NCBI GenBank assembly: GCA_004362315.1
Contig: SNWL01000003.1
Coordinates: 1,116,001 to 1,180,000, forward strand
Source of the DNA: Mycobacterium sp. BK086
GTDB taxonomy: Bacteria > Actinomycetota > Actinomycetes > Mycobacteriales > Mycobacteriaceae
Length of the DNA stretch: 64,000 nt
Direction of reading: 5' to 3'
The translations under genes were made by a program, and so were the position numbers. Positions 34,621 to 61,536 of this stretch are shown one piece after another. Numbering within the stretch: the stretch's first letter is position 1; every line of letters begins with the position of its first letter. The notes beneath the pieces are model-generated. The model saw only the letters and a program-made list of their open reading frames with translations. It had not been told where the DNA came from and made no database searches.

Positions 34621-35778
34621 ATGCAACGCTCGCTGTACGGCCCCGACCACGAGGCCTATCGGGAGACAGTGCGGGAGTTCCTGGCCCGCGAAGTCGTTCC
34701 GCACCAAGAAGACTGGGATCAACACCGGTGGATCGACCGTTCGGTGTTCGCGCGCGCGGCCAAGGCCGGTATCTATGCGCTGCAGATCGGTGAGCAGTAC
34801 GGCGGCGCAGGCGAACCCGACTACCGCTACCGCATGGTGGTGTGCGAAGAGGTCGCGCGGGTCAACGCCCTGTCCTTCGGCGTGACGATCAGCTTGCAGG
34901 ACGATCTTGTGCTGCACTACCTGCTCGACCTCACCAATGACGAGCAGAAGCAGCGCTGGCTGCCCGGCTTCGTCGCAGGCGAGATCATCGGCGCGCTGGC
35001 AATGACCGAGCCCGGCGCCGGCAGCGACTTGCGCGGTATCCGCACCACGGCGCAGCGCGACGGCGATCAGTGGATCCTCAACGGCCAGAAGACGTTCATC
35101 TCGAGCGGAATCATGGCCGACGTCGTCGTGGTGGCGGCTCGCACCGACAACACCGGCGGCTCCGGCGATTTCAGCCTCTTCGGGGTGGAACGCGACACCC
35201 CCGGCTTCGAACGCGGACGCAAGCTCGACAAGATCGGCTTGCCCGGACAGGACACTGCGGAGCTGTTCTTCCACGATGCGGTCGTGCCGGCCGCCAACCT
35301 GCTCGGCGAACCAGGCCGCGGCCTGCAGTACCTGATGAGTCATCTTCCGCGCGAACGCCTCGGGGTAACCGCCGAAGCGATCGCCACAACCCGCGCCATT
35401 TTCGAACTGACCGTGGAGTACTGCCAATCCCGCCAGGCGTTCGGCGGACCGCTGACCGACAAACAGCATGTGCGCTTCGAGCTGGCCGAGATGGGCACCG
35501 AGATCGACATCGTGCAGGCCTACGTCGATTCCTCGGTGCTGGCCTACAACGCCGGCGAGTTGACGCCGGTGGATGCCGCCAAGGGCAAGTGGTATGTCAG
35601 TGAGCTGCAGAAGCGCGTGATCGACCGCTGCCTGCAATTGCATGGCGGGTACGGCTACATGACCGAATACCCTGTCGCACGTGCGTATCTGGACACCCGG
35701 GTCAAGACTATCTACGGCGGCACCACCGAGATCATGAAGGAAATCATCGGCCGGGAGATCGCCGGCTCTACGCGGTAA
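34621..35778 (+). CDS. Acyl-CoA dehydrogenase
   Basis: This 385-residue acyl-CoA dehydrogenase has the middle-domain motif LAMTEPGAGSDLRGI (about 125-139), FISSGIMADVVVVAART, VEYCQSRQAFGGPLTDKQ in the C-terminal domain, and the catalytic Glu E370 in YGGTTEIMKEIIG. This is the normal position for short/medium-chain enzymes. It starts 1 base after the thiolase stop. Its 3' end overlaps the reverse membrane-protein gene by 11 bases (35768-35778), a convergent overlap. Confidence 0.9.
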   Translation: MQRSLYGPDHEAYRETVREFLAREVVPHQEDWDQHRWIDRSVFARAAKAGIYALQIGEQYGGAGEPDYRYRMVVCEEVARVNALSFGVTISLQDDLVLHYLLDLTNDEQKQRWLPGFVAGEIIGALAMTEPGAGSDLRGIRTTAQRDGDQWILNGQKTFISSGIMADVVVVAARTDNTGGSGDFSLFGVERDTPGFERGRKLDKIGLPGQDTAELFFHDAVVPAANLLGEPGRGLQYLMSHLPRERLGVTAEAIATTRAIFELTVEYCQSRQAFGGPLTDKQHVRFELAEMGTEIDIVQAYVDSSVLAYNAGELTPVDAAKGKWYVSELQKRVIDRCLQLHGGYGYMTEYPVARAYLDTRVKTIYGGTTEIMKEIIGREIAGSTR

Positions 35779-36460
35779 CGGTTTTCAGAGCCCGGCGCAT
35801 TGCGTCGAACATGATGAAGAACCAGGCTACGAAGACCGCCACCGGAATCCAGAACGCCAGCACCCCGTTCCAGGCCATGGGCCCGGTCGTGAAGAACGGG
35901 ATCGCGCACGCGGGGATGAGGAGCAGACCCACCCACAGGTTGGCGTAGCCCACCCAACGCGGGAACAGTGGCCGCCCGGAGCTGTCCTGCAAGATGGCCA
36001 GACCGATGGCGAAGTACTGGAACGTGAACGGCGCGACCGGCGAGAACGTCATGATGAAACCGAGGTCGTGCAGCGGCTGGAGAACCTGCGGCGGCAGGTC
36101 CGGCCGGTAGGCGACCGCCGACAAGATCACAAAATTGAGTGTGAAGAACACCGTCCCGAAGGTGCCAAGCGCCGTTTGCGCAGTGGCCAGCACCGCGTGT
36201 TCGGACTGACTGCGACGCAACAGAATTCCCACCGCCACGGTGAACGGCACATACATCGTGCCGCCCCAGATGCAGAGCACCATGCCCGCCCGTTTGAGAT
36301 TGGCGTGGTCCGACCAGAGGGCGGTCAAGCCGCCGCCGGTGATCGTCGGAGAGGGTGGCGGCAGGAACCCGGCGAACACCATCCAGCCCAGCAGGACGAA
36401 CGCGATCCCGACCGGTCCGGTCCAGACCAGCAGCATGAGGTTGCGGGTGGATGTCATCAC
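35768..36460 (-). CDS. Six-helix membrane protein, paralog A of the eight-member family
   Basis: This 230-residue protein has six hydrophobic segments (about 9-32, 58-82, 92-118, 130-155, 170-190, 198-220). Family hallmarks are GFLPPPSPT after helix 1, AYRPDL before helix 4, LFPRWVGYANLW before helix 5, and FFTTGPMAWNGVLAFW before helix 6. No catalytic motif is evident and I know of no function. It is the last gene of the SCP2-P450 operon: its ATG overlaps the stop of the FprB-like gene by 4 bases. It probably handles the hydrophobic substrate or organises the enzymes at the membrane (inference). Confidence 0.8.
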   Translation of the reverse strand: MMTSTRNLMLLVWTGPVGIAFVLLGWMVFAGFLPPPSPTITGGGLTALWSDHANLKRAGMVLCIWGGTMYVPFTVAVGILLRRSQSEHAVLATAQTALGTFGTVFFTLNFVILSAVAYRPDLPPQVLQPLHDLGFIMTFSPVAPFTFQYFAIGLAILQDSSGRPLFPRWVGYANLWVGLLLIPACAIPFFTTGPMAWNGVLAFWIPVAVFVAWFFIMFDAMRRALKTVTA

Positions 36461-38049
36461 TGCCTCCGCGCTACGGCCACCAATTCTGCTGCGTCGGAAT
36501 ACTTCACCCGCGGCCGCGCACTGCCGGCGGCTCGGTCTCGCTCGGCGGCATCGATCGTCCGCCAGCCCTGCCAGTCGACAACGGGAACGCTCCTCGACGC
36601 CAGCAGCGCGTCCACGTCACTGTTCGTGCCCACGGGCCGCCCGAGCCTGCCGGCCATGAAATCCTCGAACAGTGCGTCGACCGTCTCGAGCGCGCATCCC
36701 CGGTTGGTGCCGATGACTCCCCGTGGACCGCGTTTGATCCAGCCGGTGGCATACACGCCGGGCACTGTCTGTCCGTCGGCCAGCACCCGCCCGCCTTCGT
36801 TCGGCACCACCCCGCGCGAGGCGTCGAACGGCAGATCCGCAATCGGTGTACCGCGATAGCCGATCGACCGCAGCACCATGGCGGTATCGATGGTCTGCTC
36901 GCCCTCCCCCGTCCGCACGCGCAAACCTTCCACTCGCTGCGCGCCGACGAGTTCGACGGGCGTGGTGGAGAACCGGAACACCAGTCGCTTGTTTCCGGGT
37001 GTGGCTGTCCTGCGACGGTATTCGACCGCGATGTCGTATTTGAGGGCGCGTTCGAAGTCGTCGTCCGGACGGTCTCCGAGCTCGCCTTCGATCGCGATGT
37101 CGACCCCGGCGATCTCACCCAGCGCCAGGAACTCACCGACCGAGAACGCCGCGTCCGCGGCACCGCGACGGGCCAGGATGACGACCTCCTGGATGGACCC
37201 GGCCGTCAATCGCCGCAACGCGTGGTCGGCGATGTCGGTGTTCGCCAGTGCATCCGGCGTCATCAGCAAGACACGGGCCACGTCGAGTGCCACGTTGCCG
37301 TTGCCGATGATCACCACGCGGGGCGAATCGAGGTCCGGGTCGTCGTGGACATGGTCGGGATGACCGTTGTACCAGGCCACGATGTCGGCCGCTGCGTGGT
37401 GGCCGGGCAGGTGTTCGCCGGGGACGCCGAGGCTGCTGCTGGCGGAGGCTCCGACGGCGTAGATGACGGCGTGGTGGTGGGCCAGGAGCTCGTCGTGACT
37501 GATGTCGGAGCCGACCGCAACGTTGAAGTAGCACCCTGCGCCTGGGCCGCCCAATGCCGGTTCGAAGAGGCTGACGACCTCCTTGGTGCGCTGGTGATCT
37601 GGCGCCACACCCGAGCGGATCAGCCCGAACGGAGTGGGCAGTCGCTCAAAGACATTCACCTCGACACCGTCGTTCTCCAGCAACTCGGCGGCGGCGTAGC
37701 AGGCCGCGGGGCCCGACCCCACGATCGCGACGCGCAAAGCACCGGAGGGAACAGCGGGCCGCACCGCCACGGGCGTCGCCGCGCGGGTCCTGAGCGGTTG
37801 CCGCGCGAAGAAATCGGCGTTGATGTCCCGGAACTTCGCCTGCCCGGTCGGCAGGTCGTCCTCGTAGTAGATGGCGCCGACCGGGCACACCTGCAGACAC
37901 GCCCCGCAGTCCACGCACGCCGCCGGATCGATGTACAGCATCTGGTTGCCGACGCCTGAGGCGTTCGGCACGGGCCGAATGCAGTCGACGGGACATGCTG
38001 GCACGCAACTGGCGTCGGTGCAGCAGTTCTGGGTGATCACGAAGGCCAC
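36457..38049 (-). CDS. fprB: Ferredoxin-NADP+ reductase with N-terminal ferredoxin domain, FprB-like
   Basis: This 530-residue fusion has a seven-iron type ferredoxin domain (about 1-75) with two cysteine clusters, CTDASCVPACP and CVDCGACLQVCP. It then has an adrenodoxin-reductase-like flavoprotein (about 105-530) with VAIVGSGPAACYAA for FAD, IGNGNVALDVARVL for NADP+, and GWIKRGPRGVIGTN. It shuttles electrons from NADPH to a ferredoxin and on to P450s. M. tuberculosis FprB has the same fusion and is somewhat longer. With the ferredoxin gene 45 bases upstream it completes the electron chain of the P450 in this operon. Confidence 0.92.
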   Translation of the reverse strand: MAFVITQNCCTDASCVPACPVDCIRPVPNASGVGNQMLYIDPAACVDCGACLQVCPVGAIYYEDDLPTGQAKFRDINADFFARQPLRTRAATPVAVRPAVPSGALRVAIVGSGPAACYAAAELLENDGVEVNVFERLPTPFGLIRSGVAPDHQRTKEVVSLFEPALGGPGAGCYFNVAVGSDISHDELLAHHHAVIYAVGASASSSLGVPGEHLPGHHAAADIVAWYNGHPDHVHDDPDLDSPRVVIIGNGNVALDVARVLLMTPDALANTDIADHALRRLTAGSIQEVVILARRGAADAAFSVGEFLALGEIAGVDIAIEGELGDRPDDDFERALKYDIAVEYRRRTATPGNKRLVFRFSTTPVELVGAQRVEGLRVRTGEGEQTIDTAMVLRSIGYRGTPIADLPFDASRGVVPNEGGRVLADGQTVPGVYATGWIKRGPRGVIGTNRGCALETVDALFEDFMAGRLGRPVGTNSDVDALLASRSVPVVDWQGWRTIDAAERDRAAGSARPRVKYSDAAELVAVARRQ

Positions 38050-38094
38050 GACATTCTCCTGATTGGTGGTGCGAAGAGGCCGCTCAGGCCCTCA

Positions 38095-39665: not shown

Positions 39666-39673
39666 GACTGCAC

Positions 39674-40465: not shown

Positions 40466-40477
40466 ATCGGTTGTCTC

Positions 40478-41749
40478 CTAGTCGAGGGTGTAGGGCAGGT
40501 GCTTGACGGCGGTGATGAAGTTCCCGGTCAGATACTCTGGTTCGCCGACCCGCAGATTCGGTGCACGCAAGATCAATTCGCGGAAGATCGACTCCAGCTG
40601 CATCTTCGCCATGAATGCGCCCATGCAGTAATGCGGTCCGCCCCCGCCGTAGCCGACGTGCGGGTTGGGCGAGCGGGTGATGTCGAACTCGTAGGGATTG
40701 GTGAACACCCGCTCGTCGCGGTTGGCCGACGAGTACACCATCGTCACCCAGTCGCCCTTACGAATGTGCTGACCGTGCAACTCGGTGTCCTGCGTCGCGG
40801 TGCGGCGGAACGTCATGACCGGAGTCGTCCACCGGACGAACTCCTCCATCGCGGTCTTGATGTGTCCGTCGAAATCCTTCTGCAGCAGCGCTTTCTGCTC
40901 GGGGAACCGGTCCAGCGCGATGGTGGTGAACGTCGTCGTGGTCTTGGTGGTGTCGTTTCCGGCGACCGACAGAAGCACGAAGTACGGGCCGAGTTCGTCG
41001 TCGGTGAGTTGACGACCGTCCACCTCGGCCTGCACCAGCAACGTCATCAGATCGTTCTCGGGCTTCTCCCGGCGCGCCTGGGCCAGGCCCATGCCGATCT
41101 CGAGCAGCCCGACCATCGAATCGGTGAGCACCTCGGCCGGTTCGCGTCCCGCCGCGACCTCGGGGTCGGCCCAGGCCACCATGCCCTCGGCCAGCTGCGC
41201 CGCTTCGTCGCGTTGCTCGTCGGGCAGACCGAGCATGTCGTAGATCGTCCACATCGGCAGCCGCTTGGAGACCTGCTCGACGAAGTCGCCCTCTTTCGTG
41301 GCGAGCAGATCGTCGACGATTGAGCGGGCCTGATTCTCGATCTGGTCCTTGATCTTGGCGACCTGCCGTGGCGTGAACACGGAGCTGACCAGCCTGCGCA
41401 GGCTCGAATGCTTGGCGCCATCCATGCCGAGGAACGACTGAATGGCGTCCAGCATCTCCTCGGGAACCGCTTCGAAAGTGATGCCCTGCCCCGAACAGAA
41501 GATCTCGGGGTTCTTGCTGACGTAGGAGACGTCCTCGTGCCGGGTGACCACCCAGACACCGTCGATCTCGGGCTCCATCATCGAACCCTCGATCGGGCGG
41601 TGCCAGCTGACCGGCCGTTCGTCGCGAAGGATCTTGAACGACTTCTCGCGATCGTCGAAGCTCTGCGCCCAGAAATCCACCGAGGAGATGTTCACCGGGT
41701 CGAACGGTGGCCGGTCGATAGCTGTCGAAGTGTCGGGCTGGACACTCAT
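40478..41749 (-). CDS. Cytochrome P450
   Basis: This 423-residue bacterial P450 has the I-helix AGNDTTKTT, the ExxR helix (MEEFVRW-type region near 310; full ExxR not clearly placed) and the heme loop GYGGGGPHYCMG with C375 as the axial ligand. The GGGGPHYC loop is shared with CYP125/CYP142-like and related mycobacterial P450s that hydroxylate sterol side chains or terpenes. The ATG overlaps the FadD stop by 4 bases. A complete redox chain (ferredoxin, FprB-like) is encoded in the same operon. Confidence 0.9.
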   Translation of the reverse strand: MSVQPDTSTAIDRPPFDPVNISSVDFWAQSFDDREKSFKILRDERPVSWHRPIEGSMMEPEIDGVWVVTRHEDVSYVSKNPEIFCSGQGITFEAVPEEMLDAIQSFLGMDGAKHSSLRRLVSSVFTPRQVAKIKDQIENQARSIVDDLLATKEGDFVEQVSKRLPMWTIYDMLGLPDEQRDEAAQLAEGMVAWADPEVAAGREPAEVLTDSMVGLLEIGMGLAQARREKPENDLMTLLVQAEVDGRQLTDDELGPYFVLLSVAGNDTTKTTTTFTTIALDRFPEQKALLQKDFDGHIKTAMEEFVRWTTPVMTFRRTATQDTELHGQHIRKGDWVTMVYSSANRDERVFTNPYEFDITRSPNPHVGYGGGGPHYCMGAFMAKMQLESIFRELILRAPNLRVGEPEYLTGNFITAVKHLPYTLD

Positions 41750-43290
41750 GCTGATGCCTCCACGTAGCTTGCTTTCAATATTCGTTTCACGAGTTTTCCT
41801 GTCTCAGAACGCGGTAACTGGTCGACGAAGTCGACCGAACGCGGCGCCTTGAAGTGCGCGAGACGCTCTCGCACGTACCCGATGATCTCGGATGCGAGCT
41901 CGTCGGACGGGCTGACGCCCTCGCGCAGCTGGACGACGGCCTTGACCTGCTCGCCCATCTCCGCATCCGGCACGCCGATGACGGCGGCGTCGAAGATCTT
42001 GGGGTGCAACGCCAGAACGTTCTCGACTTCTTGCGGATAGATGTTCACGCCGCCGGAAATGATCATGAAGGACTTGCGGTCAGTCAGGTACAGGTAGCCG
42101 TCCTCGTCGAGGTAGCCCATGTCCCCCACCGTGGCCCAGTTTTGGTGGGCCGGATGCCGCGAGCCCGCGGTCTTCTCCGGATCGTTGTGGTAACTGAACG
42201 CGGGTTTATCGCGTTCGAAGTAGACCAGCCCGACCTCGCCGGACGGTAGTTCGTTGCCGTCGTCATCGCAGATGTGTGCCACCCCGAGCACGGCTCTGCC
42301 GACCGATCCCCGCTTGCTCTCCCATTCGGCACTCGACATGACCGTGGTGCCGTGGCTCTCGGTCGCTCCGTAGTACTCAGTGAAAATCGGTCCCCACCAA
42401 CCGATCATCGCGTCCTTGACCTCGGGTGGGCAGGGCGCGCCGGCGTGGACGGCAAGCCGCAGGGACGAGATGTCGTAGCGCGTCCGCTGTTCTTCCGGTA
42501 GCTGCAGAAGACGCACGAACATCGTGGGCACCATCTGGGTGACGGTGACTCGATAGCGCTCGATGGCCGCCAGCGCCGCGGCGGGGTCGAACTTCTCCAT
42601 CATGACCACGGTGCCGCCGATCGCGTGCACCGCCGCTGACCACTTCAGCGGCGCGGCATGGTAGATCGGGGCCGGTGAGAGGTAGACATCGGCATTGGTG
42701 ACCGCGAATACGTGGGCGAGCATCATGGCGATGATGTCCGCGCCCGGCTCGTCGACCGAGACTGCGGGCAGCGCCAGTTTGATGCCCTTGGGATGGCCGG
42801 TGGTGCCCGACGAGTACAGCATCTCGGCGCCGCGCGGCTGATCGTCCAGCGGCCCGGGGCGACCCGATTCGCGCAGCTCACGGTACGAGGCGAAACCGTC
42901 GATCGTGCCACCGAATGCGTAGCGGCGGACCAGATCCGGGACCTCGGCGGCCGCCCGGCCGGCCAGCTCGTCGAGGGCGGCGGAGGCGAAAAGCACCTGT
43001 GCGCCGCTGTCGGCCAGGATGTGGGCGATCTCCGGGGCCGTGAGATGCCGGTTGACCGGAGTGATGTAGAGCCCCGATCGCAGGGCCGCCCAGTAGATTT
43101 CGAATACCTCGGCGGCGTTGTCACTCAACACGGCGATCACATCGCCGGGCCGCAGGCCCAGCCCACGCAACGCCGACGCCACCCTGGCGGAGCCCTCGTC
43201 GAGTTCGCCGTAGGTCAGTGTCCGGCCGGTGCCGGCGATGATCACCGCGGGCCGGTCGGGGTCAGTGGCTGCGTGGGTTCCCGGATACAT
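41746..43290 (-). CDS. Acyl-CoA synthetase (FadD type)
   Basis: This 514-residue ANL-family ligase has the P-loop-like YSSGTTGHPKGIKL (about 159-172), YGATESHGT (A5), the hinge DRKSFMIISGGVNIYPQEVE and the C-terminal lysine motif LPRSETGKLVKR. It activates a carboxylate as an acyl-adenylate and transfers it to CoA. It would act on the acid made by the ALDH or on the pathway entry acid. The downstream P450 gene starts in its stop codon (ATGA), and the SCP2 gene precedes it by 4 bases. Confidence 0.9.
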   Translation of the reverse strand: MYPGTHAATDPDRPAVIIAGTGRTLTYGELDEGSARVASALRGLGLRPGDVIAVLSDNAAEVFEIYWAALRSGLYITPVNRHLTAPEIAHILADSGAQVLFASAALDELAGRAAAEVPDLVRRYAFGGTIDGFASYRELRESGRPGPLDDQPRGAEMLYSSGTTGHPKGIKLALPAVSVDEPGADIIAMMLAHVFAVTNADVYLSPAPIYHAAPLKWSAAVHAIGGTVVMMEKFDPAAALAAIERYRVTVTQMVPTMFVRLLQLPEEQRTRYDISSLRLAVHAGAPCPPEVKDAMIGWWGPIFTEYYGATESHGTTVMSSAEWESKRGSVGRAVLGVAHICDDDGNELPSGEVGLVYFERDKPAFSYHNDPEKTAGSRHPAHQNWATVGDMGYLDEDGYLYLTDRKSFMIISGGVNIYPQEVENVLALHPKIFDAAVIGVPDAEMGEQVKAVVQLREGVSPSDELASEIIGYVRERLAHFKAPRSVDFVDQLPRSETGKLVKRILKASYVEASA

Positions 43291-43294: not shown

Positions 43295-43699
43295 CTAGAC
43301 GATCAGGTCGGTGCGGCCGTCACCCTGGAGCCGAGCGATATAGGTCGGGTAGAGCTTCTTGCCCAGCGGTGCGAGCTTGAGCAGGCTCGCGACATTGCCT
43401 TCGACGGTGATCTTCTTCTTGGCCATGGCCAGCGGCAGGTTCACCTTGCCCTGCCAATAGGCGTTGCCGGTGTCAGCGGTCATGAACATGGTGGCCATCG
43501 GCGCGGTACCGCCTGCCACTCCCTCACGGGTCGTCTTGTTGGCCATGTCGATGACGACGACGGCCTTGGGGTCGGTGAAGTCGAACGCCACCACCAGCCC
43601 GGTCGCCTCGAGCTTCGGGCCGATCTCAGGGTCGTCGAATGCGGCCTCGAAGATGCCGCCGATGTACTTCGCCACCTCGGCAGAGTCGGTGAACCCCAT
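43295..43699 (-). CDS. SCP2 sterol-binding domain protein
   Basis: This 134-residue protein is a stand-alone SCP2-like domain: LVVAFDFTDPKAVVVIDMAN, MFMTADTGNAYWQGKVNLPLAMAKKKITVEG (in parts) and a C-terminal LAPLGKKLYPTYIARL. Such domains have a hydrophobic tunnel that binds sterols, fatty acyl-CoAs or other lipids. It is the first gene of the eight-gene reverse operon ending at 35768, and probably carries the lipid substrate between enzymes (inference). AAGGAGAAC precedes the ATG. Confidence 0.88.
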   Translation of the reverse strand: MGFTDSAEVAKYIGGIFEAAFDDPEIGPKLEATGLVVAFDFTDPKAVVVIDMANKTTREGVAGGTAPMATMFMTADTGNAYWQGKVNLPLAMAKKKITVEGNVASLLKLAPLGKKLYPTYIARLQGDGRTDLIV

Positions 43700-43884: not shown

Positions 43885-44634
43885 ATGAGCACCGCCACTA
43901 CCCCGCTGGACCTCCGCAGTGACATCGACAAGTCGCGCCGGATCCAAGTCTTCTGCACCTGGTGCGGGCCGGTCTTCGTACTGTGCCTGTTCGGCGGCTG
44001 GGGCCTGCTCGGCGGATTCATCCCGTTGATTCCGGCCACCGACTCGGCCGCCGAAGTAGCGGCCGTCTACAGCACGAACCCGACGCTGCATCGGATCGGA
44101 TTGATCATCGCGATGGCGGGCGCCTTTCTGACCCTGCCGTTCGCCCTGGCGATCAGCATGCAGATGCGCCGCACCGAGTTGAGGACCCCGGTTCTGTCCA
44201 TCCTGCAGTTCGCCTCAGGACTGATCGTCACGGTGGTGCTGATCATCCCGATCCTGTTGTTCGCCGGTAACGCCTTTCGCCCGGAGCGCGCAGCCGAACT
44301 GACCCAGCTCGTCAATGACCTGTCCTACGAGATGTTGATCCTTCCGTGGCCGCCGCTCATCGGCCAGCTGGGCGCCCTCGCGATGGCGGTCTTCACCGAT
44401 CGGCGAGCCAATCCGGTGTTCCCGCGGTGGATCGGCTACTACAACGTCTGGGTCGCGGTTCTGCTATTGCCGGCAAGCATGATCCTGTTCTTCAAGTCCG
44501 GACCGTTTGCCTGGACAGGTGTCATCGGATTCTGGATTCCCGCAGCCGTTTTCGGCACCTGGTATCTGGTGATGACGGTGTTCCTGCTGCGTGCGATCAA
44601 GCAGGAGTCCGACGAAGGTCTGAAGGAGATCTGA
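43885..44634 (+). CDS. Six-helix membrane protein, paralog B
   Basis: This 249-residue member shows FCTWCGPVFVLCLFGGWGLL (helix 1), GFIPLIPATDS, then RIGLIIAMAGAFLTLPFALAI (helix 2) and QMRRTE, AFRPERAAE, VFPRWIGYYNVW and FFKSGPFAWTGVIGFW. It differs from its relatives in having Thr in place of the Asn of AWNG. It is transcribed divergently from the SCP2-P450 operon, whose far end carries paralog A. Its stop overlaps the ATG of the small DUF4267-like gene by one base. Confidence 0.8.
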   Translation: MSTATTPLDLRSDIDKSRRIQVFCTWCGPVFVLCLFGGWGLLGGFIPLIPATDSAAEVAAVYSTNPTLHRIGLIIAMAGAFLTLPFALAISMQMRRTELRTPVLSILQFASGLIVTVVLIIPILLFAGNAFRPERAAELTQLVNDLSYEMLILPWPPLIGQLGALAMAVFTDRRANPVFPRWIGYYNVWVAVLLLPASMILFFKSGPFAWTGVIGFWIPAAVFGTWYLVMTVFLLRAIKQESDEGLKEI

Positions 44635-51358: not shown

Positions 51359-52599
51359 GCGCGTGACCGGCTTTCGTCCCAGGACAGCATCAACCGCGCC
51401 GGGCCCCGGAACAACAGGGCGTCGGTGTCCCATTCGAGTTCTTCCAGGCGCAGCCCGCTCAACCGACTCAGCAGGGCTTGCACCGCAATGTCGATCACCG
51501 CCCGGGCCATGTGCTGGCCGGGACACTTGTGCGGTCCGTGACCGAACGTCAGATGGTCTGGCGGCACATCGCGGCTGATGTCGAACTGCTCGGCATGCGG
51601 GCACCAGCTCTCGTCATGATTGGCCGCCGACAGGTAGACCATGATCGGCGTATCGGCCGGGATCTGGTGGCCACCCAACTCGATGTCCTCGCTCAACAGA
51701 CGGTGGGTGCCGTGCACGGTACCGATGTGACGCAGAATCTCCTGAACTGCGTTGGGCAGCAACGTCATATCCTCTTGCAATGCGCGCAGCTGGTCGGGGT
51801 GGCGCAGCAGCGTCACCATCGCGTTGCATATCGACAGCGCACTGGTGTCGTGTCCGCCGACATAGATGCTCCACAGGTTGGCGATCAACTCGTCTTCGGT
51901 GAGCGTGCCGTCGTCGGTGTCGGCGATCATCTTGTTGACCAGGTCGTCCACCGGCTCTTCGCGCCGCCGCGCCACCAGACCCCGGAAGTAGGTGTCCAGC
52001 GCCGACATCGAGTCGTTGGCGACCTTCAGCTGATCGGCGTCGAGCGGAAGCATCTGCACGGCCAGCTTGAACCCGTGCATCCACTGATAGATATCGGCCT
52101 CGTCCTCGTGTGGCACGGCGAGCAGCTGGCTGATCGCCGAGAGCGGCAGCGGGGACGCGAACGCCGCCATCAGCTCGACGCGGCCGGGGCCACCGGAGGG
52201 GTCGACGAAGGCGTCGATCAGCTGGTGGGCCCGATCGGCGATCGCGGGCCGCAGCGTGTCGACCAGACCGGGCCGGAAGTTGCGCTGGAAGGTCTGCCGC
52301 ACCCGGCGGTGATCCTCCCCCGCCTTCATCAGCACGCTGTCGGCCATGATCGTGAAGTACGGCTGGTTCACGACGTCGTCGCCGTGGCGCATCCGCTGGA
52401 ACTGCTCCCACCGCAGATCGCCGTCCTTGCGCGCCAGCACCTCCCGTGCCGGATCGTGTCCGGTCACGACGAAGGAGCCCAGCGCTTCCGCGGCGAAGAC
52501 GGGATCGATGGCGCGAAGTCGCGCCAAGATCGGGAAGGGATCGACGGCCAGCTCCGGGTCGAGAGGGTTGAACACGTAGTCGTTTTCGGCGGTGGTCAT
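51355..52599 (-). CDS. Cytochrome P450
   Basis: This 414-residue P450 has the I-helix YVGGHDTSALS (acid/alcohol pair for oxygen activation), the meander and the heme loop TFGHGPHKCPGQ with C359 as axial ligand. The K-helix ExxR is QEILRHIG-like (EILR). Electron donors are not encoded beside it and may come from the ferredoxin/FprB-like pair of the neighbouring operon. Its ATG overlaps the LLM-oxidoreductase stop. The substrate is unknown; its operon context with the CrtC-like and phosphotransfer proteins suggests hydroxylation of a hydrophobic substrate. Confidence 0.9.
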   Translation of the reverse strand: MTTAENDYVFNPLDPELAVDPFPILARLRAIDPVFAAEALGSFVVTGHDPAREVLARKDGDLRWEQFQRMRHGDDVVNQPYFTIMADSVLMKAGEDHRRVRQTFQRNFRPGLVDTLRPAIADRAHQLIDAFVDPSGGPGRVELMAAFASPLPLSAISQLLAVPHEDEADIYQWMHGFKLAVQMLPLDADQLKVANDSMSALDTYFRGLVARRREEPVDDLVNKMIADTDDGTLTEDELIANLWSIYVGGHDTSALSICNAMVTLLRHPDQLRALQEDMTLLPNAVQEILRHIGTVHGTHRLLSEDIELGGHQIPADTPIMVYLSAANHDESWCPHAEQFDISRDVPPDHLTFGHGPHKCPGQHMARAVIDIAVQALLSRLSGLRLEELEWDTDALLFRGPARLMLSWDESRSRA

Positions 52600-53702
52600 G
52601 CGATGCTCCGAATTTTCCAGGCTTCGATCAACTTGGCGTTCTGGGCGGGAGTGCTTCCATAGGTGGCGATTTCGTCCGCGCCCGCGTCACGGAACCGCTG
52701 CAAGGAGGTCACACACTCGTCGACCGACCCGATGGCACACGTATCGATCATCCACTCGTCGGGCACGATTTTCGCCGGTTCCAGCAACTGGTGGCGATGA
52801 AACAGCCGATCGGCCACCTTCTCGTTGGCGGCCAGCTGCTTGTGTGCCCGCAACTCGTGGACTACCGACATGTCCCAGCCGTTTTCTTCGACCAGGGTCT
52901 CCCCGTAGCCGGGGTACTGCAGATAGCCGACCGCCCGGCCGTGCGCCAACGATCGGGTTTCGATGTCGTCGAGTCCCGGTGCGGTGATGACCGCTTGGCA
53001 GATCCGGATCTCGGCGGGATCGCGGTCGATTCGCTGGCACGCCAGGCGGATTCGCTCGACCGCCTTTGCGGTGGCTTCCGGGGTGAGCACCGGTGGCAGC
53101 AGGACTCCGTCGAAGGACGACGCGAGTAGTTCGGCGCCCTTCTTCTTCGCGAACGTTCCGAGCCACACCGGTGGCGGCGGTCCAGTCACGATCTCGGAGA
53201 AGGCCAGCGACGGGAAGTTCCCGACCGGCCCGTCGTACGACACTGTCTCGCCGCGCCATAGCCGGCGCAGGATGTCGACATAGTCCGCCATCTCGGTGAA
53301 CGTCGGCATCCGAAGACCCATGCCGTGCCAAATCGCGTCGGTGCCACGGCCCAGACCGAGGGTGAATCGCGGACCGTAGCAGGCCTGCATGGTCGCCGCG
53401 AGCGCGGCCATCAGCCACGGCTGGCGGGTGGGCGGGCACACCATCGCCGTGCCGACCTCGATCCGCGACGTACGTGCTGCCGCACCCGAGAGGATCACGT
53501 CGGCCTGCTTGATATCCCACCGCTCGGAGAGCCACGCCGCACGAAAACCGAGCCGTTCGGCTTCGACAACATCGTCGATGCCCTGTGCCGGGGTGCGCAT
53601 ATCCGAGTCGTAGTCGACGTCGCCTTGCACCGCGCTCACCGCTCCGGAGATGACGTATGCGCTCAAATCGTCGACGACATCGACGTGCTCACCTTGGGAC
53701 AT
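52596..53702 (-). CDS. LLM-class (F420-dependent type) oxidoreductase
   Basis: This 368-residue luciferase-like TIM barrel protein has AERLGFRAAWLSERWDIKQ, GPRFTLGLGRGTDAIWHGMG and SFDGVLLPPVLTPEA. The F420-binding group is more likely than FMN given the organism type; flavin or F420 choice is inferred. It is first in an eight-gene reverse operon that ends at 45121. The promoter side faces the TetR gene at 53798 across two good inverted repeats. Confidence 0.85.
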   Translation of the reverse strand: MSQGEHVDVVDDLSAYVISGAVSAVQGDVDYDSDMRTPAQGIDDVVEAERLGFRAAWLSERWDIKQADVILSGAAARTSRIEVGTAMVCPPTRQPWLMAALAATMQACYGPRFTLGLGRGTDAIWHGMGLRMPTFTEMADYVDILRRLWRGETVSYDGPVGNFPSLAFSEIVTGPPPPVWLGTFAKKKGAELLASSFDGVLLPPVLTPEATAKAVERIRLACQRIDRDPAEIRICQAVITAPGLDDIETRSLAHGRAVGYLQYPGYGETLVEENGWDMSVVHELRAHKQLAANEKVADRLFHRHQLLEPAKIVPDEWMIDTCAIGSVDECVTSLQRFRDAGADEIATYGSTPAQNAKLIEAWKIRSIA

Positions 53703-53797: not shown

Positions 53798-54370
53798 ATG
53801 GCGAGTCAGGGCCAGCCTCGGCGCGGTCGGAAACCGACGCTGAGCCGCGAAATCGTCATCGAGGCGGCACTCGATCTCATCGACAGCGACGGGCTCGGCG
53901 CGCTGAACCTGCGCAAGCTCGCCGACCGGATGGGCATCAGCGCGATGACGCCGTACCACTACTTCGAGGACAAGGCGGACCTACTGTCCGCGATGATCGA
54001 GTACGCGATGACGCCGCTGGCCAACGATCTCGATCCGAACCTGTCCTCGGACAAGCAGATTGGTGCGGCCATGCTCGATCTGCACCGGATCCTTGACCGC
54101 CACCCCGGCGTCGTCGACCTGATCATCGCCGAGTCGGACAAGCTGCGACTCGACGAGTTCCGCCAGAGCCTCATCGCTACCCTGCAGAAGGCGGGACTCT
54201 CCCGCCCCCGCAGTGCCGACGTCCTGCGCTCGCTGACCAGCTACGTACTGGGCTACACGATGCTCAACCGGCTGCGCCCGGAACAGCCGAACCGGAGCGC
54301 GCCGCCGGATTCCTTCGACGTCGGACTCGAGATGATGATGCGTTCGCTGCGTGAGGAATTGGGCGGCTGA
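53798..54370 (+). CDS. TetR-family regulator of the LLM-P450-PPDK operon
   Basis: This 190-residue TetR protein has its HTH at about 13-60 (SREIVIEAALDLIDSDGLGA; LRKLADRMGISAMTPYHYFEDK). The C-terminal part resembles TetR_C domains with ESDKLRLDEFRQSLIATLQ. AAAGGAA precedes the ATG. It is divergent from the LLM gene and converges with membrane protein E, 3 bases away. The double palindrome upstream strongly suggests it regulates both its own gene and the eight-gene operon. Confidence 0.88.
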   Translation: MASQGQPRRGRKPTLSREIVIEAALDLIDSDGLGALNLRKLADRMGISAMTPYHYFEDKADLLSAMIEYAMTPLANDLDPNLSSDKQIGAAMLDLHRILDRHPGVVDLIIAESDKLRLDEFRQSLIATLQKAGLSRPRSADVLRSLTSYVLGYTMLNRLRPEQPNRSAPPDSFDVGLEMMMRSLREELGG

Positions 54371-54373
54371 GGG

Positions 54374-55081
54374 TCACTCGGCAGGTCTCCGATTGGACTC
54401 AATCGGTTCATCCTTGACAGCCCGCAGTAAGTAGTACGTGACGACGTTGTACCAAATCGCGAAGACCGCGAGGGGCAGATAGAGGCCGAAGATCCCGTTC
54501 CACGCCAGCGGTCCGGTGTAGAAGAAGACGATCGCGCTCGCCGGAAACATACTGAGCGCGAACCACACGCTGAGGTAGCCGACCCACGAAGGAAGCACCG
54601 AGCTGCGATTCATCAGTATGCAGAGGCCGAGTGCCGCGGCCTGAACGAAGAAGAACGGCCAACTGACAATCCATGAGATCCACGCGAAGTCGTTGAGAAG
54701 CCCGATCGTGTCACTGGCGTGGCCGGACCGATAGGCCATGGCCAACCACACCAGGGGTGAGATCGCGAAGAACACTGCTCCGAGGCCTGCGGAGATCGCT
54801 TGAACTGCGCTGAGAGCCGGGAAGCGTGACCGTTCTAGCCGCAGCATCTGACCGGAGACCGCCACGCCCCACGGTAGATACAGTGCCGACGCGAACGCAC
54901 AGACCGACATGCCCACCAGAATGCGCACGTGGCGCCCGTCGAAAAAGGCCATGACGGCGTCGGGGCTCCAGCTCGGCGCGGGTGGGGGGATGAAACCCGC
55001 CACCACGACAATTCCGAAAAGATAGAGAACGAAGAACGCGTAGCCGCTGTAGAGATAAACCAGCTGGCTTCGCCTGTTCAC
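54374..55081 (-). CDS. Six-helix membrane protein, paralog E
   Basis: This 235-residue member begins with GTG and has GYAFFVLYLFGIVVVAGFIP, PPAPSWSPDAVMAFFDG, SGQMLRLERS, AYRSGHAS, VLPSWVGYLSVW and FFYTGPLAWNGIFGLYLPLA. It departs from the family in having PSW for PRW. It is the last gene of the EcKL-CrtC-P450 operon, one base after the P450 stop, mirroring the position of paralog A in the SCP2 operon. Confidence 0.8.
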   Translation of the reverse strand: MNRRSQLVYLYSGYAFFVLYLFGIVVVAGFIPPPAPSWSPDAVMAFFDGRHVRILVGMSVCAFASALYLPWGVAVSGQMLRLERSRFPALSAVQAISAGLGAVFFAISPLVWLAMAYRSGHASDTIGLLNDFAWISWIVSWPFFFVQAAALGLCILMNRSSVLPSWVGYLSVWFALSMFPASAIVFFYTGPLAWNGIFGLYLPLAVFAIWYNVVTYYLLRAVKDEPIESNRRPAE

Positions 55082-55082
55082 A

Positions 55083-56327
55083 CTAAGCGTCCCATTCGAA
55101 TTCGAGACGCTCCGGTCGATGGAAGATCATTCCGTCCTGCACCCGGATCTCCTGACCATCGACGAGACGCAGATTGGGCAGTCGAGTGATCGCTGTTTCG
55201 ATCGCGACCTTCATGTCCATTCGTGCGACATTGATGCCGATGCAGGTGTGGGGGCCGGTGCCGAAATGCATGCTCTTGCGCATCTCAGCAGGATCGCGGT
55301 CGATGTCGAATCGCTCGGGGCACGCGAACACGGTGTCGTCATTGTTGGCGGATTGGACCAAGGCAAAGATATTCGCCCCCTTCGGAATACGTTGACCCCG
55401 AATCTCCACATCCTCCTTGACCCGGCGGACGATTCCGCGTGCCGGACTGAGCCGGCGCAACGACTCTTCGACGACTCTCGGTACCAGACTCAGGTCATTC
55501 CTGACCCGCTCCAGTAAGTCGGTGTGCTGGCTGAGTGTGTACAGCGTGAAGCTGATCCCGCCAGCACTGGTCTCGAACCCTGCAATGACCAATTGCCCTA
55601 TCACGCCGAGGATCTCACGGTCCGTCAAACTCTTTTCGCTCTGCTCTTGAGCGAGAATCAACCCACTGATCAAGTCGGCACGCGGGTCGGCACGCCGCCG
55701 CGCGATGGCATCCAGCAGATACTCGTTGAACCCGACCTGATCACGGGCGAGCTCCAGACGCCGAGCATCGGAGATCGACGGGACGAACAGTTCAGTGATA
55801 CCGAGCGTCCAGTCGCGGAATTTCTGCCGATCCTCCGCGGGTACTCCCAAGATCTTGATGAGCACATCGATCGGCATCGGGGTGGCGAACTGCTCCACCA
55901 GGTCGGCTCGACCGTCACCGGCGAAGCTATCGACCAGAGAGTTTGCGGCCGCGCGGATCACGTCTTCGTGTTGTTTCACCGCGACGGGTGTCAACGGTTT
56001 GGCGGCAAGTTTGCGAATCCGGGTATGTTCCGGCGGATCTGTGTTGATCAAGGCTGGCTGCCATGGCGCATAGCCATGAGGCAGTTGCTGTTTCAGTTCG
56101 TCCGGCACCTCGCCGACAAGGTCGTCCGGCATGCAGCCGAATCGGTCCATGTCCTTGACGATCGCCAACACATCGTCGTATCTGCTGATCACCCAGGCAT
56201 CGAGCTCGGGAACGTGCAACACCGGTGCATGCTCGCGCAGCGGCCCGAACAAGGGGCAGGTATCCCAGGTGCTGCGAAACACGTCCATCATCGAAGGCTG
56301 TGTGTCGGTTTGGTCAGTCACTGTCAC
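55083..56327 (-). CDS. Cytochrome P450
   Basis: This 414-residue P450 has the I-helix LVIAGFETSAGG, the ExxR sequence EESLRRLSPARG (EESLR), and the heme loop HFGTGPHTCIGIN with C362 as axial ligand. The I-helix has Glu-Thr in place of Asp-Thr, common in P450s of the CYP class acting on bulky substrates. The start is GTG 56327, inside a GTGA overlap with the CrtC-like gene. It follows the EcKL-like kinase and CrtC-like genes in one operon, which ends with paralog E. Confidence 0.88.
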   Translation of the reverse strand: MTVTDQTDTQPSMMDVFRSTWDTCPLFGPLREHAPVLHVPELDAWVISRYDDVLAIVKDMDRFGCMPDDLVGEVPDELKQQLPHGYAPWQPALINTDPPEHTRIRKLAAKPLTPVAVKQHEDVIRAAANSLVDSFAGDGRADLVEQFATPMPIDVLIKILGVPAEDRQKFRDWTLGITELFVPSISDARRLELARDQVGFNEYLLDAIARRRADPRADLISGLILAQEQSEKSLTDREILGVIGQLVIAGFETSAGGISFTLYTLSQHTDLLERVRNDLSLVPRVVEESLRRLSPARGIVRRVKEDVEIRGQRIPKGANIFALVQSANNDDTVFACPERFDIDRDPAEMRKSMHFGTGPHTCIGINVARMDMKVAIETAITRLPNLRLVDGQEIRVQDGMIFHRPERLEFEWDA

Positions 56328-57403
56328 ACCTCGGGTCGGCGGTAAGGGGGATAATCGGATGAATCCGGAAAGCACTGCAGGAGGCCAGGATCCTCGGCAA
56401 GGAGTCTCTTCCAGTACTTGCGGTAGTGCCGGAAGCTCATGAAATCCTGGTCCTCGCCATAGACCACCTGCCCGTCGTATTCCCAACGCACCAGCGACCA
56501 CCAGTTCAGAATGTCGCTGTTGATCGGCCATTTCAGCCAGTTCATCGTTTGACCGACGGCGTGCAGCTCGCGGCCCAGTTCGTCCACACAGTCGATGACC
56601 TGGGACAGCACGCGTCCGTCTCGGCCGCGTTCAGCACGCCGGGTACCCCCGAGGATCCTTGCCTTGACTCCGTCGCGGATGTAAAAGCCGGTGGTCACGG
56701 TCTCCGTCGTGCCTTCGATCGGATCGTCGTCGAACTGCAGCGTCGTCTGCGGGTCGTAGAGATGCCAACCACTGTCGGCGGACGCGAAGACGTACGGCCA
56801 ACCAGCACGCAGCGGGTCCTTCACGTCGGCATGCCGCGGGCCCCATCCACGGTCACGCAGGCCGCCGCAGTCGATATCGATGATGTCCCCCGCGATTTCG
56901 AGGGTGCCTTTGATCCAGCCGGCGTGCTCGTAGTGCCCGACCGAGTAGTCCCCTTCTTTCTTGACCCAGTTCTTGATTCCCGGATCCTCTTCACCGTCGC
57001 TCGCCAGTTGCATGTAGTGCGGCTCCGCGAGTGCGGTCCAGGTCAGGTCGAACGTGACCCCGTGGCGGTCGTAGCGCAGCCGGTACTCGCGCTGCGGCTC
57101 GATCATGGTGCAGCTCAGGGAGTTCGACAATTCGAAGTCGTACATCTGCGCACCGTCGGGGATGGCCAGATGCTGATCCCACCCGTAGTACAGGCAGTTG
57201 TAGACGTCCTCGCCGGTGTGGTCCCACATCGCCGGGCCGGCCACCACCAGGTTCATGTTCGGTCGGAAGTAGAAGTAGATGAATCCGCAGAGGTTTCGCT
57301 CCGGAACGGTGAACCCGAAAAGGCTGTTCTCACTCCAGTACGGGTCTGCGCTGCGTTGGTGAAAGTACTCGTCCGCGACGTCGATCTGGTCGGTCCACCC
57401 CAT
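56324..57403 (-). CDS. CrtC/AttH-like beta-barrel protein (DUF7065 type)
   Basis: This 359-residue protein shares the GLRDRGWGPRH signature (about 178-188) with its distant relative at 50390-51358 (GLRDHTSGPRD). The N-terminus MGWTDQIDVADEYFHQRS and the strands SLFGFTVPERNLCGFIYFYF, then DPQTTLQFDD, fit two lipocalin-like barrels as in CrtC/AttH proteins. No catalytic residue can be confirmed. A GTG at 57409 inside a GTGA overlap is an alternative start. It lies between the EcKL-like kinase and a P450, and could bind or hydrate a terpenoid-like molecule (inference). Confidence 0.68.
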   Translation of the reverse strand: MGWTDQIDVADEYFHQRSADPYWSENSLFGFTVPERNLCGFIYFYFRPNMNLVVAGPAMWDHTGEDVYNCLYYGWDQHLAIPDGAQMYDFELSNSLSCTMIEPQREYRLRYDRHGVTFDLTWTALAEPHYMQLASDGEEDPGIKNWVKKEGDYSVGHYEHAGWIKGTLEIAGDIIDIDCGGLRDRGWGPRHADVKDPLRAGWPYVFASADSGWHLYDPQTTLQFDDDPIEGTTETVTTGFYIRDGVKARILGGTRRAERGRDGRVLSQVIDCVDELGRELHAVGQTMNWLKWPINSDILNWWSLVRWEYDGQVVYGEDQDFMSFRHYRKYWKRLLAEDPGLLQCFPDSSDYPPYRRPEV

Positions 57404-57405
57404 CG

Positions 57406-58536
57406 TCACACCAGCCCTGCAGCTTGCGGGGCGTCCAGGTCCAGGGCCATGTCTGCGTAGCGACGTATCTGGTCGATGATGATCCGATCCGCTTGCTCGC
57501 TGGACTCCACCTGACTGGCCATTCCGACGAAGAGGAGCACGCCATACATCGCCCCCTCGCGGTAGGCGGACCAACACTCGTCGCGGTTGAAGCCCTCCAC
57601 ACCTGAAAAAACCAGGCGGTCATGATATTCGGCGATCAATTCGCGCTCAGCCGCCCGGCGGTCCGCCGTAGGCAGCGATGAGCCCAGGTAATACGCAGGG
57701 TCGAGGCCCGGCGGGCCCAACCGGACCGTCTGGAAATCGACGACGACAGCTCGATCGGATTCCGGGTCGGTGGCGAACATCAGGTTGTCGCTACGAAAGT
57801 CGCCATGTTGGATGACGGTCGGGGCCTTCCAGCTGCGCACCCATTCGCCGGCGCGGGGCACCACGGACTCGAACAGGCTGACGTGGGACGCCGCGAGGTG
57901 GTCGCCGAACCGCTCCAAGAACGGTGCGAGGCCCGCCGGAAGAGAATCGAAAACCCCGATGGTTCGTCGTGGGTCTGCGAGCCAGGCCAGGTCCGCGAGT
58001 TGCGCACTATTCCACAACGGTGCCTGAAATTTGACGAGTTCGCCTAACGCCGTGGAACATTCGGAAGGCGTCGCCGTCTCGAGCACGTTGCCGGCCCGCA
58101 TCCCCGTGCCGAGATCCTCCAGGACCAGGTTGAATGTTGCCGCATCCTCGGAAAGTTGAGCCGAGTAACACTTCGCCAGCCCCAGATTCGGCACCAAGGG
58201 AGCGATGTCGCGGTAGAACAGGGTCTCCAGCTCGTACATGCCCATCGCCACGGCAAGTCCCCGGCTGCCGGGATCATCACTGGGAAACTTCACGACAACT
58301 GATGCGGGTGCGTTCGTTGTGCCGGTATAGGTCAACCTTGCTCGCATCATCCGGGCAATGATCCCGCCTTCCACGGGCTCGAGATCGACGGCGGCGAGGT
58401 CAGCTTCGGCCAGCAGTCCCGCCTCGCCGAGGACAGCCCGGAACCAATCAAGAGTCATCAATTCGACCTCGCCCACGATCGGCGTCGGATTTCCGTTGCC
58501 GCCGTTGATAACAACGGACGGAATGGCGTTGCTCAT
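57406..58536 (-). CDS. Phosphotransferase, ecdysteroid-kinase-like (EcKL/APH fold)
   Basis: This 376-residue kinase-fold protein has GGIIARMMRARLTYTG, the Lys in ASVVVKFPSDDP, EDLGTGMRAGN, the catalytic loop IQHGDFRSDNLMF (Asp and Asn), and VVVDFQTVRLGPPGLDPAYYL (metal Asp). This HGDFRSDN/VVDFQ combination matches the EcKL/DUF1679-type branch of the APH superfamily. The animal members phosphorylate ecdysteroid hydroxyls; bacterial members are largely uncharacterised. It probably phosphorylates a hydrophobic alcohol or CoA ester (inference). GGAGCG precedes the ATG. It is first in a four-gene operon. Confidence 0.8.
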   Translation of the reverse strand: MSNAIPSVVINGGNGNPTPIVGEVELMTLDWFRAVLGEAGLLAEADLAAVDLEPVEGGIIARMMRARLTYTGTTNAPASVVVKFPSDDPGSRGLAVAMGMYELETLFYRDIAPLVPNLGLAKCYSAQLSEDAATFNLVLEDLGTGMRAGNVLETATPSECSTALGELVKFQAPLWNSAQLADLAWLADPRRTIGVFDSLPAGLAPFLERFGDHLAASHVSLFESVVPRAGEWVRSWKAPTVIQHGDFRSDNLMFATDPESDRAVVVDFQTVRLGPPGLDPAYYLGSSLPTADRRAAERELIAEYHDRLVFSGVEGFNRDECWSAYREGAMYGVLLFVGMASQVESSEQADRIIIDQIRRYADMALDLDAPQAAGLV

Positions 58537-58600
58537 CGAGTAGCGCTCCTACAGGGCAGAAGAGGGATCTGGTGCGTCCGAGCGTCGATCTCGCTCAATC

Positions 58601-58634
58601 TCGAACATCTAATTCGAACACTATGTACGATTAG
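58601..58634. promoter_or_regulatory. Possible operator between EcKL-like kinase and membrane protein F
   Basis: The 135-base divergent gap holds a direct repeat TCGAACA (58601-58607 and 58614-58620, 13-base period) and an imperfect inverted repeat CTAATTCG (58609-58616) / CGATTAG (58628-58634). One base differs in length between arms. It may bind the TetR at 59378-60001, but this is not shown. Confidence 0.35.
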
Positions 58635-58671
58635 CCCGCGTTGTCAATCCCCGCGAACGGAGACCATCTAC

Positions 58672-59373: not shown

Positions 59374-59377
59374 GGCG

Positions 59378-60001
59378 CTAGGCTATCGGTGAGTAGAGGG
59401 TCCGCCAGACCACGGTTGTCATGCCGTCGAGACGCTCTTCGACATCATCACCGGTGCTCGTCAGCTCGTAGAGACCGCGTTCGATCATCCAGGTGAGCCA
59501 TGGCGCAACGGCCGCGACGTCGACCTCGGCGGGGATGAAGCCGGCATCCTGCTGCCCACGGAACCCGACTCTGAGGTCTTCTGCCCTGCGCTCCATAACG
59601 CCTGCGAACTGAGCACGGACTCGCGCATCATGGGTGGCGGTCTCGACGACAGCAGCCAATAAGTAGCGATGGGCGGTGTAGGCGTCCGCGATCTGTTTGA
59701 GCGCCGCCTTCAGATCAGCGGGGGTCGAATCCGGGGGCAGACTGAACCACGCGTCGGCAGCCTCTCCGACCTTTTGGGTGACGCGTTCCGCCAGTTCAGT
59801 AAGCAGTTCACCCTTGTCCTCGAAGTACACATAGAAGGTCGACCGCGCGATCTCAGCGCCAGTGATGAGCTGCTCCACGCTGATTTCCGCGAAGCCAGTA
59901 CCCTCGGCGAGCAATTGTTCGGCGACAGCGAACAGCCTGCGAGCGATTTCCTCACGCCGAGCCGCGCGGCTGACCCTGCCCTTCCGAACCGTCACTGCCA
60001 T
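59378..60001 (-). CDS. TetR-family regulator
   Basis: This 207-residue TetR protein has its HTH at about 15-65 (REEIARRLFAVAEQLLAEGT; ISVEQLITGAEIARSTFYVYFEDK). The C-terminal TetR_C domain includes EDLRVGFRGQQDAGFIPAEV and WLTWMIERGLYEL. The basic N-terminus VRKGRVSRAARREE is typical. It lies between paralogs F and G; candidate targets are the EcKL operon (operator-like repeats at 58601-58634) and the FAD oxidoreductase operon. The ligand is unknown. Confidence 0.86.
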   Translation of the reverse strand: MAVTVRKGRVSRAARREEIARRLFAVAEQLLAEGTGFAEISVEQLITGAEIARSTFYVYFEDKGELLTELAERVTQKVGEAADAWFSLPPDSTPADLKAALKQIADAYTAHRYLLAAVVETATHDARVRAQFAGVMERRAEDLRVGFRGQQDAGFIPAEVDVAAVAPWLTWMIERGLYELTSTGDDVEERLDGMTTVVWRTLYSPIA

Positions 60002-60090
60002 CGCGCGATACGCCTGCCCGTCGTGTGAATAGTCGCCCAGTTTCTGGGATTCTACTCAGCCATCGCAGATCGCCGTGGATCCCTTCGCGA

Positions 60091-60831: not shown

Positions 60832-60840
60832 GGTTGCCTC

Positions 60841-61536
60841 CTAGTCGGTCTTTTCCGGGGAATGAGGGTCGTCGAGGTTGGCGTTTCGCAGCACCACACC
60901 CATCACGATCAGGAATGCGGCGTAGGCGAACAGCGCGAGCCAGAAGACGAATACGCCGCGCCACGAGAACGGCCCGGAGTGGAAGAAGAAGGCCAGCACG
61001 TCAGGGATGAATGCCGCGGCGACCCAGAAGTTGAGGTAGCCGACCCACCTTGGCAACACCGACTGTCTGTGCCCCAGTATGGCCGTGCCGATCGCGATGT
61101 TCTGAATCATGAACGGCGCGATCGGCGTGAGGAACAGCAGCCACGCGATGTCGTTGAGGGTGACGGTGAGTTCCGGGGTGCGGTCGGGCCGGAACGCGAT
61201 GATGGCCATCAACAGCATCGGCATCAGCAGTAGCACACCGGTGGCCGCGCCGGTGATCGCTTGGATGATCGTCAACAACGGCGTGCGTCCCTCGATCCGC
61301 CACATCGTCAGCGTGATCAACGCGATCAGCGGGAAAACCAGGCAGACACCGAGTTGCGCGATCACCAGGCCGACCAGGACCCGGGTGTCGTGACTGTAGA
61401 ACGCGACGACTTCCTCGGTGGTGCTCGACGATCCCAGGGGGAACGGAAGGACGCCGGCGATGAGCCAGCCGATGAACGCCACCACGACCGTCGCCGGCCC
61501 GGACCAGGCGCACAACCGCTGCAGTGTCCCCGACAT
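60841..61536 (-). CDS. Six-helix membrane protein, paralog H
   Basis: From ATG 61536 it has 231 residues: LCAWSGPATVVVAFIGWLIA, GVLPFPLGSSSTTEEVVAF, MWRIEGRTPL, AFRPDRTPELTVTLNDIAW, VLPRWVGYLNFW and FFHSGPFSWRGVFVFW. AWNG is altered to SWRG. The start was set at MSGTLQRLCAWSGP because the open frame upstream is not conserved. Only 2 bases separate it from the stop of the CrtI-like oxidoreductase. Confidence 0.8.
   Translation of the reverse strand: MSGTLQRLCAWSGPATVVVAFIGWLIAGVLPFPLGSSSTTEEVVAFYSHDTRVLVGLVIAQLGVCLVFPLIALITLTMWRIEGRTPLLTIIQAITGAATGVLLLMPMLLMAIIAFRPDRTPELTVTLNDIAWLLFLTPIAPFMIQNIAIGTAILGHRQSVLPRWVGYLNFWVAAAFIPDVLAFFFHSGPFSWRGVFVFWLALFAYAAFLIVMGVVLRNANLDDPHSPEKTD

Follow-up and report, generated by a model that had tools for sequence, protein, structure and literature searches.

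A 64,000-nucleotide stretch of the genome of Mycobacterium sp. BK086 (contig SNWL01000003.1, positions 1,116,001 to 1,180,000), hereafter the window, contains eight open reading frames whose products, of ~230–250 residues, follow a six-helix membrane plan. The reading frames were confirmed at the following positions, and each is assigned by a common family profile:

35768..36460, minus strand: family member A, 230-residue six-helix membrane protein
43885..44634, plus strand: family member B, 249 residues
47302..48024, minus strand: family member C, 240 residues, with a 4-base overlap with D
48021..48758, minus strand: family member D, 245 residues, the reference for residue numbering
54374..55081, minus strand: family member E, 235 residues
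58672..59373, plus strand: family member F, 233 residues
60091..60831, minus strand: family member G, 246 residues
60841..61536, minus strand: family member H, 231 residues

Profiles built from any seven of these proteins recover the eighth, with E-values of 1e-56 to 1e-75, and have no matches among shuffled sequences or the remaining gene-called proteins of the window. Chance motif similarity is ruled out by this result, and the eight are confirmed as a real, uncharacterised family, as an initial annotation of this DNA had proposed. The motif plan by which they had been recognised is retained in part: GPx[AS]WxG occurs in all eight and PRWxxY in seven, but other motifs are looser than claimed, with [FY]RP in six of the eight and PPxP and GPxAWNG in five each.

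The most constant genomic companion of this family, well supported as such in several phyla, lies outside the window. It is a pair of genes whose products match COX3 (PF00510) and COX4_pro (PF03626). The outside loci studied are the best 78, taken from 298 relatives in named genomes; their carriers are Mycobacterium, Frankia, Streptomyces, Amycolatopsis, Pseudonocardia and Nocardioides, together with Porticoccaceae, Nevskia, Novosphingobium, Verrucomicrobiaceae, Myxococcota and others. Gene maps of these loci contain a COX3-like gene (~197 residues) in 39 and a COX4-like gene (~93 residues) in 37. A family gene is followed directly by COX3 on the same strand in 35 cases, with COX4 next in 32 of them, and in a minority of loci the pair stands upstream of the family gene or farther off. 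This family–COX3–COX4 order, here called the trio, repeats in loci of Gammaproteobacteria, Verrucomicrobia, Myxococcota and Actinomycetota, and at 29 of 48 non-mycobacterial loci the pair is no more than two genes away from the family.

The association is also close when read from the COX3 side. Across 22 genomes, 58 of 59 module-type COX3 genes lie less than 1 kb from a family gene; the corresponding count in ten of these genomes, all family carriers, is 39 of 40 COX3 genes within 1 kb, the near ones at a median gap of 60 base pairs. Within the host's phylum, the family is found in 18 of 396 genomes, with strong matches in 13, and module COX3 (E <= 1e-40) is found in those same 13, an overlap with a chance probability of about 1e-24. 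Leaving the host aside, all 19 module COX3 genes in these genomes adjoin a family gene. Plasmids repeat the pattern, with COX3 within 4 kb of the family in 17 of the 18 plasmid records that carry it (15 called by annotation, 14 of these with COX4 also annotated, one by tblastn position and one by hidden Markov model in an unannotated record). With a COX3 taken from a trio as query, the family is present in 11 of 12 plasmid records that contain module-type COX3. The two components differ in copy number: in four mycobacterial genomes the family and COX3 matches stand at 32:6, 42:10, 28:8 and 16:2, some of the family matches being fragments.

Several trios have surroundings or arrangements of their own. 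At L123 (G000 C3:866000-884000), positions 8309-10670 hold a family–family–COX3–COX4 operon adjoined by genes for an O-methyltransferase and a DAP_DH_C protein, and the same genus has further genomes in which two neighbouring family genes precede COX3. On plasmids of Sphingobium amiense and Sphingobium cloacae (L117, L182, L183), the trio has transposase or recombinase genes for neighbours; these neighbours, together with identical COX3 and COX4 accessions on the three plasmids, give the trio the look of a mobile unit. Mce lipid-importer-type operons adjoin the trio in two Rhodococcus records, and one trio has an ATP-binding cassette (ABC) ATPase and Mce-type permeases nearby.

Among known systems, the partner pair agrees in type with NorE/NorF, which is defined as a COX3–COX4 pair in a nor locus, and differs from it in that a six-helix family gene takes the place of nitric oxide reductase genes beside it; the 16 annotated family-bearing regions have no gene annotated as nor. 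Thiothrix plasmid pTfr153 (L187), which carries COX3–COX4 with hemerythrin, NorQ-type and von Willebrand factor A (VWA) genes, has no family gene, and no nitric oxide reductase genes are found in the stretch shown. Its gene surroundings point to the NorE/NorF type for the pair, the name given to such loci. The COX3 partner matches 33 distinct PDB sequences, and its relatives in PDB are oxidase subunits. It shares the COX3 signature residues of CtaE, subunit III of the aa3-type oxidase, but one representative reaches 88.5 bits, short of the CtaE cut-off of 190, and it contains an invariant K and an invariant E that are missing from the host CtaE and present in one NorE-like protein. The catalytic subunit of haem-copper oxidases has conserved haem and copper histidines, whereas potential haem or metal ligands in 121 family members reach at most 30% conservation for His and 47% for Cys. 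COX1 and COX2 are likewise not annotated in 16 annotated trio or family regions, for which the gene tables are incomplete. The likeness to such oxidases resides in the subunit III-like partner and not in the family itself.

The host genome contains 32 family matches, of which eight lie in the window, three just beyond it and 15 at C4:236-289 kb, which forms a second island; the other six, one of them weak, occupy five further sites. A search of 61 related genomes, a set that counts the host, finds the family in 31, mostly in one to six copies, with 42 and 16 matches in two genomes besides the host. In the phylum to which one gammaproteobacterial carrier belongs, 2 of 398 genomes have the family, that carrier being one of the two. 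On a tree of 206 rows, each window member has orthologues from other species as its nearest neighbours, the eight occupy separate deep branches, and under midpoint rooting their common node spans all rows. A single clade of the eight with eight orthologues is rejected by an approximately unbiased (AU) test on a 50-row quick tree (p-AU 0.00165). Comparison of regions of the host with those of the genome G018 gives reciprocal best matches for 25 of the 31 family genes, with a median identity of 0.89, although two of these pairs are only 59–63% identical and are perhaps not orthologues. Median ratios of nonsynonymous to synonymous substitution (dN/dS) between the two genomes are 0.095 for the family (25 pairs), 0.082 for enzymes (52 pairs), 0.088 for AveC-type proteins (12 pairs) and 0.139 for COX3/COX4 (8 pairs). 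The family expanded long ago and is kept under purifying selection. Recent local duplication is ruled out by the tree, the AU test and the host–G018 comparison, and the derivation of A to H by local duplication, as in the initial annotation, is not supported; of that annotation's alternatives of an old or a fast-evolving expansion, the former is supported, and the latter fails on a family dN/dS near the enzyme value. A Nocardioides copy (L106) lies very close to the host copy L128:3342-4043 (tree path about 0.2), which suggests a recent transfer. Paralogues at L018, L021, L024 and L029 have longer C-terminal tails that by eye resemble short coiled coils, perhaps for oligomerisation.

By profile comparison, the family is a remote branch of the DUF4386 (PF14329) superfamily, itself uncharacterised. 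None of the eight window members scores above the cut-off of any Pfam or NCBIfam model; the best listed Pfam match, Colicin_V on member H (E 0.0052), and a single NicO match (E 0.0024) in 1 of 121 family members are judged to be chance. Likewise, no known transporter family gives a convincing Pfam or NCBIfam match in the window members or the 121, and a profile of the 121 matches no PDB chain up to E 10, in agreement with the initial annotation, which knew of no characterised member. The DUF4386 Pfam model matches 5 of the 121 at E <= 0.01 (best 1.7e-6) and one host paralogue (C4:256468) below cut-off at E 3.4e-4; none of the eight window members matches it even at E <= 1, let alone at its gathering score of 27.6 bits. 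The assignment is drawn from profile comparison, in which hhalign aligns the family with 29 DUF4386 proteins from other genomes over 185 columns (probability 88.6, E 2.6e-6), a full-length collinear match despite only about 15% identity, whereas COX3, AveC_like (PF17198) and AveC2 score 0.2–0.5% under the same settings and show no relation to the family. To our knowledge, DUF4386 has no known function. Its name was not found in the open-access literature searched, and neither the family nor the trio was found among the matches listed, which is weak evidence of absence since subscription journals and preprints lay mostly outside the search.

The charge pattern of the family fits N- and C-termini inside. 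With helix limits drawn by eye, strongly conserved residues concentrate in loops on both membrane faces, where 14 of the 16 positions conserved at 85% fall; conserved polarity within helices is slight apart from Q93 and Q145. The 85% level refers to 171 copies that were not counted as linked to COX3, among them every copy from the host, G018 and G031 regions, where linkage went unscored; all 16 positions are conserved in 35 linked copies as well. Copies without the link thus seem capable of working with that partner too.

Within the window, the family genes are interspersed with the following:

36457..38049, minus strand: ferredoxin/FAD-dependent oxidoreductase fusion (Pfam, NCBIfam), perhaps an electron supply
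40478..41749, minus strand: cytochrome P450 (PF00067)
41746..43290, minus strand: AMP-dependent acyl-CoA ligase-like protein (PF00501)
43295..43699, minus strand: SCP2 sterol-transfer-like protein (PF02036, E 4.7e-6)
45121..45726, minus strand: 201-residue protein, no Pfam or NCBIfam match
45719..47302, minus strand: pyruvate phosphate dikinase (PPDK)-like protein (NF004531), contiguous with members C and D
48783..50393, minus strand: PEP-utilising mobile-domain protein (PF00391)
50390..51358, minus strand: DUF7065 protein (PF23213, at cut-off)
51355..52599, minus strand: cytochrome P450 (PF00067)
52596..53702, minus strand: luciferase-like (LLM) oxidoreductase (PF00296), first gene of the contiguous 53702-45121 run
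53798..54370, plus strand: TetR regulator with weak similarity, below cut-off, to the mycofactocin regulator MftR2
55083..56291, minus strand: cytochrome P450 (PF00067)
56324..57403, minus strand: DUF7065/Rv3169-like protein (both below cut-off)
57406..58536, minus strand: EcKL/APH-type kinase-like protein (PF02958)
59378..60001, minus strand: TetR regulator (EthR_C domain match)
61539..62852, minus strand: amine-oxidase/CrtI-like flavoprotein (PF01593)

The P450–DUF7065–PPDK–SCP2 set is the window's own block, found with the same genes in matching order in G018 and in related form in M. triplex (L041); in M. branderi a gene adjoining PPDK, as 45121..45726 does here, is annotated as MarR. In the islands more broadly, family genes alternate with AveC_like genes, a second AveC-related family, CrtI/CrtO-like and amine-oxidase-like flavoproteins and TetR regulators, beside DUF7065, EcKL kinase, LLM and acyl-CoA enzyme genes. 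The coupling to P450, SCP2, FadD, PPDK and CrtI-like genes initially emphasised captures catabolic-type surroundings but is too narrow: only 2 of the 31 host family genes examined have a P450 no more than two genes away, and P450 is ruled out as a constant partner, a position held by COX3–COX4. The uptake, storage or enzyme-anchoring role that the initial annotation suggested for the family is a possibility. A TetR gene lies within two genes of 18 of the 31. AveC_like, with 8 of its 12 host genes within 5 kb of a family gene, is ruled out as an obligate partner by its absence from the matches in 3 of 9 genomes with family and COX3. The AveC-related membrane family, of ~270 residues (L058:9189-10001 and relatives), with several copies in the islands and no Pfam match in the representative scanned, is a remote AveC_like relative (hhalign probability 93.9, E 1.6e-7). 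Mycofactocin hints recur beyond the weakly MftR2-like regulator of the window, with a family gene near mftE/mftF in Streptomyces (L178) and mftR near the trio in N. pentaromativorans (L120). In our judgement, the window is of more interest for the partner pair outside it than for its local gene neighbours.

The reading that we favour, tentatively and at somewhat short of an even chance, is that the family members are substrate-specific exchangeable subunits working with a shared COX3/COX4 membrane core. COX3 and COX4 would form a small core on which a family protein docks as a specificity subunit, contacting it through the conserved loops (PPxP, FRPxR...ND and GPxAWNG outside; RIEG and D...PRW inside). 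Its variable helices might then be the binding site for one specific lipophilic compound, similar to a sterol or terpenoid, which would be passed through, or presented in, the membrane to the enzymes of the genes next to that paralogue; genomes rich in pathways keep few cores (1–10) and many subunits (up to about 40). We infer the physical complex, the common core, the bound substrate and its chemistry, and the direction of passage from the fit of the near-strict partnership, the copy asymmetry, the contrast of conserved loops with variable helices, the TetR neighbours and the Mce operons. ECF transporters, in which many diverse small multi-helix S components work on one shared EcfAAT core, offer a likeness in their specificity subunits and common core, by analogy only and with no sequence relation shown; among the labelled genes of the 16 annotated regions, none is named EcfA or EcfT. 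The fuller proposition, that this is an undescribed modular system in which a NorE/NorF-like COX3–COX4 platform detached from any oxidase serves dozens of six-helix specificity subunits, each for one lipophilic growth substrate and coregulated with its pathway, is put forward with more reserve, at around one chance in three.

A number of observations weigh against this proposal. Ten of the 13 co-occurring genomes come from one genus, with four genera in all, and the phylum-wide family and COX3 searches scored 7–8 candidates per genome. The correlation of family distances with those of the adjacent COX3 (r 0.77 for 32 trios, reached in 0 of 2000 permutations), itself a point in favour, takes no account of how closely the species are related. 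The plasmid exception is a Streptomyces record, where the pair is missing beside the family; on the S. herbicidovorans plasmid the two stand 2.6 kb apart on opposite strands, and the exception among the 40 COX3 genes is a COX3–COX4 pair at G031:C1:6036583 with no family gene nearby. All eight window copies, like most copies, have no COX3 beside them, so the sharing of one core is conjectural, and active transport is left unexplained, as we know of no energy-coupling role for COX3 or COX4. The surroundings of the lone G031 pair (L188, C1:6030000-6043000) contain LLM, EcKL and acyl-CoA dehydrogenase-type genes.

Three other explanations are less probable, in the order given here. It is unlikely that the family is itself a cofactor-free integral membrane enzyme, a hydratase, isomerase or cyclase acting on lipophilic intermediates in the manner of AveC, with R117, D129, D156 and W/N residues catalytic. 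Its paralogues do sit among oxidoreductase and acyl-CoA genes and share islands with AveC_like proteins, whose namesake AveC is an enzyme, and they conserve charged residues without conserved His or Cys; yet those charges lie in loops on both faces with no single evident pocket, homology to AveC_like is lacking in the profile comparison, AveC_like is not found in 3 of 9 genomes with family and COX3, and the COX3–COX4 link would go unexplained. A self-contained transporter or efflux protein, one per pathway and each with its own TetR regulator, would suit small multi-helix proteins that diversified along with gene clusters, the frequency of TetR neighbours and the Mce operons by the trio in the two Rhodococcus records. 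We consider it less likely again, as such a protein would have no need of COX3–COX4, has no convincing similarity to a known transporter and shows little conserved polarity in its helices save Q93 and Q145.

An improbable last candidate is a respiratory or gas-related role for the trio, as a terminal-oxidase accessory, an electron sink or a means of O2 or NO handling built on a NorE/NorF-like pair. The oxidase-subunit relatives of COX3, the lone Thiothrix pair beside NorQ-type and VWA genes, and nearby flavoproteins that need an electron acceptor all argue for it. Against these stand the regions in which COX1 and COX2 are not annotated, within their incomplete gene tables, the family's lack of a conserved His or Cys that could ligate haem or metal, and about 30 versions per genome, which respiration would hardly need.

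The exchangeable-subunit reading, if true, would supply a candidate membrane step for many sterol- and terpenoid-type catabolic clusters of mycobacteria, sphingomonads and rhodococci, in whose records the trio is annotated as 'hypothetical protein - cytochrome c oxidase subunit 3 - subunit IV'. We know of no agreed function for oxidase-type subunits III and IV that lack a catalytic subunit, NorE/NorF included, and a near-obligate partner outside respiration makes the function of such lone subunits testable. Taken together, the family and its constant companions in several phyla point to a membrane module, as yet undescribed, of bacteria that degrade greasy compounds.

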